Shown piece by piece: positions 7,792-32,958 of a DNA stretch of 32,958 nt (the first letter of the stretch is position 1; every line of letters starts with the position of its first letter). The position numbers were made by a program, and so were the translations under genes. Below the pieces are notes generated by a model. That model searched no databases and was not told the origin of the DNA. It saw only the letters and a program-made list of their open reading frames with translations. Origin of the DNA: Methanolobus sp. (GTDB lineage: Archaea; Halobacteriota; Methanosarcinia; Methanosarcinales; Methanosarcinaceae); the NCBI RefSeq assembly GCF_030682845.1, contig NZ_JAUXNK010000022.1, forward strand, positions 1-32,958, read 5' to 3'.

Positions 7792-8712
7792 ATGGAAACC
7801 ACGACACTCAGATGCGATAAATGCAACAGGGATGCAATCATATTTCAGAAATATTCCGGCATGCACTTATGCAGGAAACATTTCATCGAGGATGTTGAAC
7901 GCAAAATAAAGCTGACCATCAGGAAACATTACAGTATCAAGAGGAACGAGACCATTGCAGTGGGTCTGAGCGGTGGCAAGGACAGCAGTACAACGCTTTA
8001 CATCCTGCACAAGATATTCGGAGGAAGGCCGGACATAAGTCTGGTTGGCATCTGCATTGATGAGGGAATAGAAGGTTACCGCCCCAATACCATCGAGTCT
8101 GCAAAGGAATTGACCTCACAGCTTGGAATTGAACTCATTGTACGCTCCTTTAAGGAAGAATATGGAACTACAATGGACCTGATAGCACCTCAGAAAAGAG
8201 AAAAAGGAACATGCAGCTATTGCGGGGTCCTTCGTAAATCCCTGCTCAACAAGACAGCACTTGAGCTTGGTGCCACACGGCTTGCAATAGGCCACAACCT
8301 TGACGATGAAGCGCAAACTGTCCTGTTGAACCACCTCAAAGGCGATGTTTCAAGAATGGTACGTCTGGCTCCGCCCAAGGAACTGGAAGGACTCGTACTG
8401 CGTATGAAACCTCTGCGGCAGATACCGGAAAAAGAAGTTGCCCTGTATGCTTACCTGCATGACCTGCCTCTTGGTTTTGGCGGATGTCCGTATGCACATG
8501 AAGCCATGAGAGGGGAGATCAGGGTGCTGCTTAACGACCTTGAGGTAAACCATCCTGGAACAAAGTATGCACTTCTGAGTGGATTTGACAAGATGTCAGG
8601 TATTCTGGGAAGGGAGTTTCCCCAGGAAGGACTCGCAAACTGCCGCTTATGCGGCCAGGCCTGCACCGAAGGTGTGTGCCAGGCCTGCAAGCTATTGGGC
8701 AGGGATCAGTGA
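7792..8712 (+). CDS. ncsA: NcsA/TtuA-type tRNA 2-thiouridine synthase
   Basis: This family thiolates U34 of tRNAs, adenylating the base before sulfur transfer. The protein is 306 residues. It opens with a zinc site (C8, C11, C27, H30), has the PP-loop SGGKDS at 60-65, the catalytic/iron-sulfur cysteines in GTCSYCG and GGCPY, GHNLDDEAQT, and a C-terminal zinc ribbon (CRLCGQAC, then CQAC). All features of the TIGR00269 group are present. The frame stays open to a GTG at 7747, but that start would put 15 residues before the zinc site and precede the TATA box, so ATG 7792 is preferred. Its last seven bases overlap the end of the convergent membrane-protein gene. The sulfur donor is not evident here. 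Confidence 0.9.
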   Translation: METTTLRCDKCNRDAIIFQKYSGMHLCRKHFIEDVERKIKLTIRKHYSIKRNETIAVGLSGGKDSSTTLYILHKIFGGRPDISLVGICIDEGIEGYRPNTIESAKELTSQLGIELIVRSFKEEYGTTMDLIAPQKREKGTCSYCGVLRKSLLNKTALELGATRLAIGHNLDDEAQTVLLNHLKGDVSRMVRLAPPKELEGLVLRMKPLRQIPEKEVALYAYLHDLPLGFGGCPYAHEAMRGEIRVLLNDLEVNHPGTKYALLSGFDKMSGILGREFPQEGLANCRLCGQACTEGVCQACKLLGRDQ

Positions 8713-9614
8713 TCGAGGATATAATCCTCGAGGGAATATAGTTTGTTGCCGTTCCTGTTCAGGTACAGACGGGTCCACCAGATAGTCGTGAGTGTCGGTA
8801 TCACAATGAAAGTGAGAATAGGATTAACTAATGACCACACCTGTGCCACTACATCAATGAATCCTGCAATCTCACCTAAAAGTTGCATGAACAGGGAAAT
8901 GACAATCAAGATGATCCACAGAGCCAATGCGCCGGACTTGTTGGACATAAAAACCGCCACTCCTTTTTCGATCGCACTTACCGGGTCCAGGTTTTCCACC
9001 ACCAGTGCATACTGGACAAATATCAATACAATACTTATTGCCAGAAGATAGAAGCCCCAGATCAAAAGTCCGAAGAGTAGCATGGAAGTACCTGCAATAG
9101 CCTGCTGAGGATCATTGAGGAGAGTTCCAAGGTCCCCTATGGAAAGGATGCCAGGTATCGTAAAAACAATTCCTGCCAGAGCGAGCAGCAACATGAGAAT
9201 TTTTGCAAGGAACAGGCTCACAACATTCCTCATTCCGTATGCTGACATATCCCTTAAACTAGTGTCACCCCTTTGTGAAGCTTCTTTTGACATGCCTATG
9301 GCACCTGCCATAAAGAAAGACTGCAGGAACATATAGATAAGGACAAAAACAATCCCGAGTGCTACAAGGGGCCAGATACTTCCAGAAAGCAGGGAGCTTA
9401 TTACAGCCAGAAACTCCTCGGGGCTTAACTGCTCGAGGTCCACATTGTTGGCCGAAACCTCAGGGAGTATGAACAGCATTACAAAGAACATAGTAAATAT
9501 AATGAACAGGACAAACGTCGCCAGGACCTCTATGATAAAAGGTACGCAGATAGCAAGGTTTCGTTTCCATGTGCTAAAACCTTTGTGTACTATAGTAGTA
9601 ATATCTTCGGTCAT
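8706..9614 (-). CDS. Multi-pass membrane protein of unknown function
   Basis: A 302-residue protein with about six hydrophobic segments. It opens with a soluble TEDITTIVHKGFSTWKRN, and the pattern resembles archaeal membrane proteins distantly related to the glycerophosphodiesterase membrane domain. Segments around FIIEVLATFVLFIIF, SIWPLVALGIVFVLIYMF, LAKILMLLLALAGIVF and LWIILIVISLFMQLL are clear membrane spans. The loop LVVENLDPVSAIEKGVAVF is a typical connector in this group. No catalytic motif is recognisable. Start ATG 9614 is preceded by CGGAG, and CTATATAAATACC at about 9648-9660 on the minus strand is a suitable promoter. It ends in a seven-base convergent overlap with ncsA. Confidence 0.8.
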   Translation of the reverse strand: MTEDITTIVHKGFSTWKRNLAICVPFIIEVLATFVLFIIFTMFFVMLFILPEVSANNVDLEQLSPEEFLAVISSLLSGSIWPLVALGIVFVLIYMFLQSFFMAGAIGMSKEASQRGDTSLRDMSAYGMRNVVSLFLAKILMLLLALAGIVFTIPGILSIGDLGTLLNDPQQAIAGTSMLLFGLLIWGFYLLAISIVLIFVQYALVVENLDPVSAIEKGVAVFMSNKSGALALWIILIVISLFMQLLGEIAGFIDVVAQVWSLVNPILTFIVIPTLTTIWWTRLYLNRNGNKLYSLEDYILDH

Positions 9615-9701
9615 GGTTTTTCTCCGGGGTTACAGTCAATAGGAGATAGGTATTTATATAGATATTTGACTTCATATTAAGTGCATAAGTAATAGAGCTT
9701 G

Positions 9702-9714
9702 CCGAAATATAAAT
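9702..9714 (+). promoter_or_regulatory. BRE/TATA promoter with no downstream + strand gene
   Basis: CCGAAATATAAAT is close to the archaeal BRE plus TATA consensus. It predicts a start near 9736 on the plus strand, yet both flanking genes lie on the minus strand, so it is best explained by a non-coding transcript. Confidence 0.45.
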
Positions 9715-9735
9715 GTTAATTTATATAATTAGCAG

Positions 9736-9890
9736 GCCATTCAATACATCTATTTACAGAGACGGTAAAGCCTAAATACAATGATAGCGTTAATGTGTTT
9801 GCGCGGGTGCTTTTTTCATACACTAAACCCCACTCCCCAAATACATTAAACCCCCACTCCCTAACCCGCGCAAATTCTTATTCTTGTTTG
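9736..9890 (+). ncRNA. Candidate small RNA: two C-rich repeats enclosed by an 11-bp stem
   Basis: The 483-base gap between the membrane-protein gene and hppA holds a perfect 11-bp inverted repeat, TTTGCGCGGGT (9798-9808) and ACCCGCGCAAA (9864-9874). Inside are two near-identical copies of TAAACCCCACTCCC (9824-9837, and 9847-9861 with one extra C). On + the loop exposes CCCCACUCCCC-type runs complementary to purine-rich ribosome sites, and the closing stem is followed by TTCTTATTCTTGTTTG, a usable terminator. On - the same bases give five G runs able to form a G-quadruplex. A plus-strand promoter at 9702-9714 fits. Function is inferred. Confidence 0.4.
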
Positions 9891-10051
9891 ATAGACATTA
9901 ATTTTAATTTTAGATTATAAGGTTGACAAATGATATTCTGGTCTTTTTGATATTTAGGTTCTGTAGAAACTCTTAATAATGTAAATTGTGAACTCTGCCT
10001 GCAATTCTTTTTGAAGACATTAAAAAGAGCTGAATAGCAAAGAAGAACATT

Positions 10052-10087
10052 AAAAATAGAAAGCATTTCCGGCTTAATAGCCGGAAA
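10052..10087 (-). terminator. hppA terminator hairpin
   Basis: TTTCCGGCT and AGCCGGAAA form a perfect 9-bp stem with a four-base loop (10066-10087), starting ten bases after the hppA stop. On the minus strand it is followed by a T-rich stretch (TTTCTATTTTTAA). Confidence 0.75.
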
Positions 10088-10097
10088 CATACCTGTT

Positions 10098-12119
10098 TTA
10101 GAAGATACCTGCTCCGATGAAGAGGGAAGAGAACAGGATCGCGACCATGTTCACTACCTTGATCAGGGCATTGAGGGCTGGTCCGGAGGTGTCCTTGAAC
10201 GGATCTCCCACTGTGTCACCAACAACCGCTGCCTTGTGAGCATTGGAACCTTTGCCGCCGTACATTCCATCTTCGATGAGCTTCTTTGCGTTGTCCCATG
10301 CTCCTCCTCCGTTGTCCATTGTAAGGGCAAGCAGAAGACCACATACGATGATACCTATAAGAAGGCCACCGAGTGCTGCAGGACCAAGTACAAGTCCTAC
10401 TATCACAGGTACAAAGATCGCCAGCATGCCGGGGATTGCCATTTCGCGAATCGCGGCTGCGGTCACAATATCGACACACTTGCCGTATTCGGGTTTTGCA
10501 GTTCCTTCCATGATGCCCGGGATCTCCCTGAACTGGCGGCGTACTTCATTGACGATCTTGAAGGCTGCTTTGCCAACAGCCTGCATCGTGACAGCTGTGA
10601 ATATGAACGGAAGCAATCCACCTATGAACAGTCCCACGAGGACGACCGGCTGGTCAAGACTCAGGTTGACAGGATCCACTCCCTGATTCACCTTGTGTAC
10701 GTAGTCTGCGAACAGTGCAAGCGCACCGAGTGCTGCAGAGCCTATAGCATATCCCTTTGTAACGGCCTTTGTGGTGTTACCCACAGAGTCAAGGGAGTCT
10801 GTGACCTTGCGGACGTTGGAAGGCAGGCCTGCCATTTCGGCAATACCGCCTGCATTGTCAGTGATAGGACCGTACGAGTCAAGCGCTACTATCATACCTG
10901 TTGTGGAGAGCATCGCTGCTGCTGCTATTGCAACACCGTAGATACCAACTGCAGGGTCTGTCGCTCCACCTACAACGTAGAAGGAGGCGAGGATACCAAT
11001 GACAATGGTAATCACGGGGAACACTGTGCTCTCAAATCCCATTGCAAGACCGGAAATGACGTTTGTACCGGCACCTGTCTCAGAGGCTTTTGCAATCGTC
11101 TTTACCGGACGGAAGGATTTGGATGTGTAGTATTCCGTGAATACTACCATGAGCACCATTATAGCGATACCTACAAGGGCTGCATAGTAGAATTTAATGT
11201 CGTCCATCAGGGATGTCGTAACAAAATAGAATGCTATCAGGGACAGAATTGCTGAACCTGCAACACCTTTGTACAGTGCATTCATGATATTGCCGCTGCT
11301 TCCCACCTTTACGAAGAACACGGATATGATGGAAGCAAAGATCGCAACTGCACCGAGTATAAGCGGATAGAGGATTGCATTCGGATATGAGGAAATGATC
11401 AGTGAACCAAGAAGCATAGAAGCAAGCACTGTGACCACGTATGTTTCAAAGAGGTCGGCACCCATGCCTGCACAGTCACCGACGTTGTCACCGACGTTGT
11501 CAGCTATTACGGCTGCATTACGCGGATCATCTTCGGGGATACCGGCTTCGATCTTACCTACAAGGTCTGCACCTACATCGGCAGCCTTTGTGAAGATACC
11601 TCCGCCAACCCTTGCAAAGAGACTGATCAGACTTGCACCGAACCCGAACCCGATCACAAGGTCGACATCACCGTACAGAATGTAAAAACCACTGGTACCG
11701 AGCAGTGCAAGACCTACCACTGCAAGACCTGTGACAGCTCCTCCACGGAATGCAACTGACATAGCTTTCTGCAGGCCCTTGGATGCAGCGTGTGCTGTCC
11801 TGACATTGGCCCTGACAGAAACGTTCATTCCGATGTATCCGGCCACTGCCGAACTTATTGCACCAACTAGGAAACCAATGGCAATCTTTGTTCCATCATC
11901 AAGCAGAACAAAGATAAGTGCCGCAATGATCACAGCCACTACGGCTATAGTCTTATACTGACGGTTCAAGTATGCCATCGCACCCTCCTGGATGGCGCTT
12001 GCTATTTCCTGCATCTTTTCTGAGCCAGCCTCTTCCTTAAGAATGCTGCGCGCAAAGATCCCAGCAAACAACAAACTGATCAGACCAGCAAGAGGGGCAA
12101 GATAAATTAAAGATTCCAT
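10098..12119 (-). CDS. hppA: Membrane-bound, K+-independent proton-pumping pyrophosphatase
   Basis: The enzyme couples PPi hydrolysis to ion export across the cell membrane. At 673 residues it has the normal prokaryotic length, with about 16 membrane segments. The catalytic core motifs are intact: [20 protein letters not shown], then [18 protein letters not shown], and the C-terminal [13 protein letters not shown] with [15 protein letters not shown]. The sequence [10 protein letters not shown] has lysine where K+-dependent enzymes have alanine, which marks the K+-independent class, normally H+ pumps. The ribosome site GAGGAG lies seven bases before ATG 12119. A strong minus-strand TATA region (about 12261-12280) would give a leader of about 120 bases containing a hairpin plus T-tract. 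Confidence 0.96.
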
Positions 12120-31818: not shown

Positions 31819-32958
31819 CTAACAAACACCAATTCCGCTAGTTCCTGTAGCGTATTTCTGAGTTATGCCAAGTTCCTGTAGTCCTTTGTTAAGAATGTTA
31901 ATGCTCGCATTGACATCCCTGTCATGGTGCTGACCGCAATGGTCGCAGTCAAATTCTCTGACAGAAGTGTCTTTTACCTTAACATTCTTATGTCCACAGA
32001 CAGAGCAAATCTGACTAGATGGGAAATACTTCTCTATCTGGTGGTAGATATTACCGAACTTCTTAGCCTTGTACTCAAGCATCCTGAAGAGTCTGTTCCA
32101 TGAAGCATCGTAGATACCTTTGGAGTTCTTCTGACCATTTGACATTGAAAGGATGCTGAGATTTTCGGAAATAATAAATTGGTTCTCTTTTACTATTCCA
32201 TAACTCAGTTTATGGAGAAAATCAGTCCTACTGTTTGCTGTTCTTGAATGCATTTCAGCAACATGTATTCTCTGTTTCTCATAGTTGTTGCTGCCTTTCT
32301 GTTTCTTTGAAAGGTCATGTTGTCTTTGAGCAAGTTTCTTCTCGTTCTTTTTATAATGTTTCGGATTCGAAACCTTATTACCGTTACTATCTACCAGATA
32401 ATCCTTGATACCAACATCAAAAGCAATGATGTTGTTGTTATCTTCCTGTTTATCCGGCAGGGGTTCCACGTTAATCAGCACAGAGACAAAGTACCTGTTA
32501 TCAGGGGTCTGGGAAATGGTTGCACTCTTAATACTTCCATTGAAGTCCCGATGTAAATGAGCTTTTACCTTGCCAAGCTTAGGTAATTGAATTGTTCTGT
32601 TCTCATGATCAACTTTGATATTATTGTTGGTCATATTGCTAGTATATGACTGATACCTTGAATGCTTGGACTTGAAAGAAGGTGGATTGGAATTGTGGTC
32701 AGCATAACAGTTCTTATGAGCAGCTGCAAGATGGATCAGGGAATTTGTAATCGCAAATTTATCAATATCTCTAAGCCATGGATATTGGTCCTTTAGTACC
32801 TGATTGCAGTGGTTATTCCATCTGGTAGCATCCCATGGCAACTTATTGTTCTTGTAGTCTTGTGTCTGTTTAGACAGATAATAATTATAAACAAAACGAA
32901 CACAACCAAAGGTCTTGCTGATCTGGGCAATCTGTTCCTCATCAGGATATATCTCGTA
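31819..32958 (-). CDS. tnpB: TnpB, RNA-guided nuclease of an IS1341/IS605-type element (start outside window)
   Basis: The frame is open to the window's right edge. A TTG at 32839-32841 is not the start, because the in-frame bases before it read YEIYPDEEQIAQISKTFG and then CVRFVYNYYLSKQTQDYK, the usual N-terminal helix-turn-helix region of TnpB. About 380 residues are present. RuvC residues are intact: Asp in IAFDVGIKDY, Glu in IISENLSILS and Asp in HHDRDVNAS. The zinc ribbon is CSVCGHKN with CDHCGQHHDRD. Only a few N-terminal residues should be missing. No tnpA is visible. It shares the right-end layout with the left-edge element but differs clearly in protein sequence, so these are two separate insertions rather than copies. 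Confidence 0.94.
   Translation of the reverse strand, partial: YEIYPDEEQIAQISKTFGCVRFVYNYYLSKQTQDYKNNKLPWDATRWNNHCNQVLKDQYPWLRDIDKFAITNSLIHLAAAHKNCYADHNSNPPSFKSKHSRYQSYTSNMTNNNIKVDHENRTIQLPKLGKVKAHLHRDFNGSIKSATISQTPDNRYFVSVLINVEPLPDKQEDNNNIIAFDVGIKDYLVDSNGNKVSNPKHYKKNEKKLAQRQHDLSKKQKGSNNYEKQRIHVAEMHSRTANSRTDFLHKLSYGIVKENQFIISENLSILSMSNGQKNSKGIYDASWNRLFRMLEYKAKKFGNIYHQIEKYFPSSQICSVCGHKNVKVKDTSVREFDCDHCGQHHDRDVNASINILNKGLQELGITQKYATGTSGIGVC

Follow-up and report, generated by a model that had tools for sequence, protein, structure and literature searches.

Positions 9798-9885 on the + strand of the window, the whole stretch of 32,958 nucleotides analysed here, almost certainly form a gene-like unit of a class-wide family of small hairpin RNAs, as judged from sequence comparison. 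The best explanation overall, which we regard as probable, is that the stem of these small RNAs serves as a scaffold and that C-rich modules in the loop act in trans as binding sites, most likely by pairing with mRNA leaders. These comparisons support the original prediction that the + strand encodes a small non-coding RNA, and they show its stem to be genuine and its loop to contain repeated C-rich modules. A coding reading is set aside: between close relatives, C runs gain or lose single bases, and the frame shifts with them.

Architecture of the RNA gene and its promoter

The predicted gene is organized around a conserved stem-loop (9798-9874, +), and both of its ends are predicted, the start near 9798 from the position of the TATA box and the 3′ end within 9880-9890 (+). 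The 5′ stem arm, TTTGCGCGGGT (9798-9808, +), forms 11 pairs with the 3′ arm, ACCCGCGCAAA (9864-9874, +), at the very bases first proposed, and compensatory changes are found in this stem family-wide. The loop, single-stranded in the computed fold of the window copy, contains a U-run (9811-9816, +), matched by a U-rich run at the same place in the family alignment rows, which is a possible binding site for an archaeal Sm-like protein. It also holds two C-rich modules on the + strand, already recognized in the original prediction and 88% alike: the first (9825-9840) has a core, CCCCACTCCCC (9828-9838), that aligns with the family motif, and the second (9849-9864) has the core CCCCCACTCCC (9851-9861), in which CCCCACTCCC is invariant in 39 of 39 aligned members. 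Downstream, the U-rich stretch TTCTTATTCTTGTTTG (9875-9890, +) is a probable termination zone, by analogy with known U-tract termination in archaea. The gene is convergent with hppA (10098-12119, -), which encodes a proton-pumping pyrophosphatase (Pfam PF03030, E = 8e-273) and serves as a syntenic landmark. Elsewhere in the window, positions 31890-31990 harbour another exact 11-bp inverted repeat, whose loop spans about 80 bases.

By itself, the inverted repeat is not far beyond chance expectation: exact 11-bp repeats enclosing a loop of 20-80 nt occur zero to two times per shuffled window, and the stability of the window hairpin's fold exceeds that of shuffles by only a modest margin (z = -1.66). 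It is the conservation of the hairpin, with relatives in 95 of 100 genomes, together with the covariation of its stem, that puts it beyond doubt.

The promoter had been placed at 9702-9714, a site that turns out to be unconserved beyond close relatives, the conserved TATA-like box, CTAAATAC, lying instead at 9772-9779 (+) within a BRE/TATA promoter, GACGGTAAAGCCTAAATAC (9761-9779, +). Comparison of ten orthologous loci shows conservation in the block GACGGTAAAGCCTAAATA (9761-9778) and in the hairpin (9798-9874), and much less of it in the flanks. Among 187 members, the A+T share peaks at 93-96% at the positions that precede the conserved CGGG of the stem by 31 to 33 bases, and a TATA-like box is found in the expected stretch in 144 of them, against 26 in shuffles; the box in the window is a few bases closer to the stem than is average for the family. 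The promoter is oriented along the C-rich strand. In Methanolobus psychrophilus, promoters lie about 19-22 nt before the transcription start (PMC5378194), and this spacing leads us to predict a start near 9798, so that the transcript of about 150 nt from 9736 first envisaged shortens to a predicted RNA of about 80-93 nt (<95 nt) with a single closing hairpin. Another TATA-like sequence, at 9718-9730, is rejected as the promoter of the RNA and may serve the minus-strand gene for a DUF7847 membrane protein (8706-9614, -). The latter gene adjoins the RNA gene and is retained across Methanolobus loci, and its product is fast-evolving, with about 42-89% identity among them.

Stem covariation and distribution of the family

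Read on the C-rich strand, the family is laid out as a BRE/TATA promoter, a stem arm, a U-run, one to three CCCCCACUCCCC modules and the complementary arm; in the loci read across the family, the modules take the form CCCCCACTCCCC, and a U-rich stretch often follows the 3′ arm. The loop core, CCCCACUCCC, is invariant, and first modules vary slightly between members. One module is present in 119 of 196 members, two in 76 and three in a single member. The stem arms are far more diverse, including TTTGCGCGGG, TTGCACGGG, GTGAGCGGG, ATGGGCAGG, GCTGACGGG, ACGAGCGGG, GAGGTGTGTG and TGCGGGGGA, and every arm faces its complement. Two-sided (compensatory) changes, which the original prediction had suggested looking for, are present in 9 of the 12 stem pairs among 39 aligned members. 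The covariation score of these members, 0.408 versus 0.146 in shuffled alignments and 0.04-0.11 with slid partners, is that of an alignment built by MAFFT rather than by structure, whose members were partly chosen for possessing the stem. When the C-rich strand is read, eight G-U and no A-C cells occur among the nine inner pairs, and because the same G-U cells would be mismatches on the other strand, the C-rich strand is probably the RNA. To judge by the alignment, the stem is selected as RNA, its letters drifting while the pairing stays.

With a 121-base DNA query and matches accepted up to E = 1, relatives are found in 95 of 100 genomes related at genus to order level, the weakest of these matches meaning little alone. 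Of 156 genomes of the class, 154 contain the family by a covariance model, R1, at 1-14 copies each. In a phylum-wide sample of 393 genomes, searched with strict filters that may lose weak matches, 84 have a match to R1 and all 84 belong to the class, with no match among the roughly 300 genomes sampled outside it. From the names of the matched records, this class would be Methanosarcinia, and the family occurs in Methanosarcina, Methanolobus, Methanothrix, Methanohalophilus, ANME-2 and others. Across 84,980 species genomes, a pattern scan matched at least 119 stretches; the 80 matches listed of these at least 119 include Methanosarcina, Methanolobus, Methanothrix/Methanosaeta, Methanohalophilus, Methanococcoides, Methanomethylovorans, Methanohalobium, Methanoperedens and ANME-2, as well as archaea named only to order or family level and one uncultured archaeon. 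In viral contigs, an 18-base pattern has four matches, none with the hairpin design.

The window copy scores 66.7 bits against R1 (E = 2.6e-12), a value to be read knowing that this copy belonged to the training set. Its genome holds three strong R1 copies, or seven members when weaker ones with a second stem type are included, and the neighbouring genes differ around the other copies. Four members in this genome beyond the strong copies (loci L075, L076, L078 and L123; contigs C101, C79, C37 and C59) have the stem GAGGTGTGTG/CACACACCTC and one module each, and their 5′ arm resembles a Shine-Dalgarno sequence. The position of the copy 3′ of hppA is shared by Methanolobus, two additional genera of the taxonomic family (L041-L045), one of which would be Methanohalophilus-like, and Methanosarcina-like genomes (L032, L035). 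The stems of these orthologues differ in sequence and are always paired.

Several other features were observed around the loci examined. In genomes of the same order outside the window's family, RNA gene copies stand in tandem, about 158 to 233 bases apart and each with a TATA-like box (L027, L063, L051, L054, L055). In one Methanosarcina-like genome, a HEARO RNA (Rfam RF02033; L032:70-309, -) lies near both hppA and the RNA gene. Genome G013 (L056-L061, around base 500-700) carries a different intergenic repeat in at least six copies, containing CTCCACTCCC and an internal GAGATATT repeat, which possibly corresponds to nine cold-induced small RNAs of M. psychrophilus (PMC5378194).

Possible modes of action

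In the mechanism we propose, the modules would be interchangeable binding sites acting in trans, presented by the stem; their CACUCCCC part would base-pair with G-rich stretches of mRNA leaders, chiefly purine-rich ribosome-binding sites, and this pairing would lower translation. We rate such a base-pairing action on mRNA as plausible, a little short of an even chance. Pairing of this kind is natural to suspect because the module holds UCCC, a motif through which LhrC and other small RNAs bind Shine-Dalgarno sites (PMC4132741), and three studied small RNAs of Methanosarcina mazei are reported to occlude ribosome-binding sites (PMC6560208).

The Shine-Dalgarno pairing put forward in the original prediction is possible; the comparisons made here show no enrichment that is specific or conserved. 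In 1.2 Mb of one Methanolobus genome, start regions pair better with C-rich sequence than other regions do, sites at -14 kcal/mol or better being found in the start regions of 36 of 1026 genes, compared with 2 upstream and 15 in coding sequence. However, the real order of letters in the module is not clearly above permuted C-rich modules at start regions, with 3 of 40 permutations reaching it at the -14 threshold. Likewise, among 259 orthologous starts of two genera, 9 pairing sites are shared against 5.6 expected, a non-significant excess reached by 8 of 60 permutations. The best shared sites precede genes that we take, from reading their sequences, to be a queD-like gene, one for an FpoN-looking subunit and a malic-enzyme-like gene. 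The strongest site, a 10-bp pairing at the start of a lipoprotein gene in one Methanolobus genome, is private to one species, being lost in relatives, and was rejected as a target. Two other candidate partners were also set aside: the perfect partner, GGGGAGTGGGG, occurs in the window's genome only in the RNA genes themselves, and the ribosomal RNA stretch examined has one 7-letter exact match to the part of the complement tested. A plain Shine-Dalgarno mimic would be expected to read CACCUCC, which counts against pairing with mRNA.

Invariance of the module across a class is at least as well explained by one fixed partner as by many drifting mRNAs. The modules may bind a single conserved protein, or form a ribonucleoprotein with it, and the RNA would titrate or guide that protein in a CsrB-like manner, with module and copy number setting the dose; we consider this explanation rather unlikely, if deserving of attention. 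It would account for a CCCCACUCCC core that is invariant while the stems change freely, for the variable number of modules (one, two or three in 119, 76 and 1 members) and of copies (1-14), and for the empty outcome of the search for a conserved mRNA site, both at the best single site and over the 259 orthologous starts. However, nothing in the data names a candidate, we know of no protein proposed for this C-rich module, and protein sites are usually shorter or tolerate some variation. In its broader form, a class-wide regulator of methanogens and anaerobic methane oxidisers whose module recognises a single conserved partner, either an RNA-binding protein or an RNA, and whose copies and repeats act as dose, the explanation is equally doubtful, if conceivable.

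It is improbable that the family is an already studied small RNA of M. mazei, namely sRNA41, sRNA154 or sRNA162, or an unnamed entry in the M. mazei or M. psychrophilus lists, even though the screens found about 200 small RNAs each (PMC5867862, PMC5378194) and such conservation makes a list entry likely. sRNA154 and sRNA162 are trans-acting Methanosarcina small RNAs that mask ribosome-binding sites, the action proposed for the family. However, sRNA154 has an NrpR operator (PMC3177094), and neither GGTA-N6-TACC nor GGAA-N6-TTCC occurs in any of the 196 members, which sets it apart by description. For sRNA162, homologues are reported only in M. mazei, Methanosarcina acetivorans and Methanosarcina barkeri, and its three stem-loops and 39-nt linker (PMC3510493) differ from a single hairpin of <95 nt found class-wide. 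sRNA41, a small Methanosarcina RNA covering ribosome-binding sites (PMC5867862), was compared by its targets rather than its sequence: at the ACDS gene starts, its known targets, pairing with the module is weak (about -3 to -10 kcal/mol in one Methanosarcina-like genome), and identity with the family is unlikely.

That the conserved element is a G-quadruplex of the G-rich strand, as DNA or RNA, or an i-motif of the C-rich DNA strand is very improbable. The original prediction had offered a quadruplex as an alternative function, and the five G runs it noted on the minus strand are indeed present in the window copy. However, with about 60% of members (119 of 196) carrying one module, and hence two long loop runs, too few for an intramolecular quadruplex, conservation does not extend to a four-run structure, and both the wobbles, present only in the C-rich-strand sense (eight G-U against no A-C), and the direction of the promoter mark the C-rich strand. 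A repeated extragenic element or terminator hairpin without a function of its own, as several intergenic copies per genome and one near the hppA 3′ end might suggest, is just as improbable, given that the copies have a dedicated promoter and an invariant loop, lie at orthologous positions, are few per genome and occur in nearly every genome of the class.

Only a small number of known archaeal small RNAs are retained throughout a whole class, and the hairpin RNA, with its nearly invariant 10-letter core in almost every member of a methane-making or methane-oxidising class, probably does something basic. The family would give Rfam a new entry with strong covariation and, if the modules recognise a single partner, would represent a global post-transcriptional switch so far unnamed. 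As genetic tools exist for Methanosarcina, the question of the partner is testable.

Comparison with known regulatory RNAs

No Rfam 15 family reaches the gathering score in the window, or on the hairpin in 11 further loci, and a relaxed search of 9600-10100 returns only a chance match, outside the hairpin. In the literature library searched, no relevant paper describes the family or joins CCACUCCC with Methanosarcina; the family may be present without a name in published transcript lists.

Titration RNAs of the CsrB/RsmZ type carry repeated, identical single-stranded sites in variable number, each with a GGA motif. The hairpin family shares the repeated single-stranded sites and their variable number and differs in that its motif is C-rich rather than GGA, with no partner protein known. 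The Cuckoo small RNAs of Rhizobiales, such as NfeR1, have loop motifs resembling the anti-Shine-Dalgarno sequence and occur as related copies, some in tandem. Both traits find a counterpart here, although the module reads CCCCACUCCCC and is not a true anti-Shine-Dalgarno CACCUCC, the family is archaeal, and tandem copies are confined to some lineages.

LhrC of Listeria, a multicopy small RNA with redundant UCCC motifs that acts on ribosome-binding sites (PMC4132741), resembles the family in its several copies per genome (seven in the window's genome) and in its redundant CU-rich motifs in loops or single strands, here CUCCC in one to three loop modules; action on ribosome-binding sites is proposed for the hairpin family. 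The matches listed for R1 and for the scan of 84,980 genomes all fall in one archaeal class, and homology to LhrC is not indicated. LhrC is composed of several stem-loops over 111-114 nt, whereas the archaeal family has one closing hairpin, a longer and nearly invariant CCCCCACUCCCC module, stems that differ between copies and a near-universal presence in its class.
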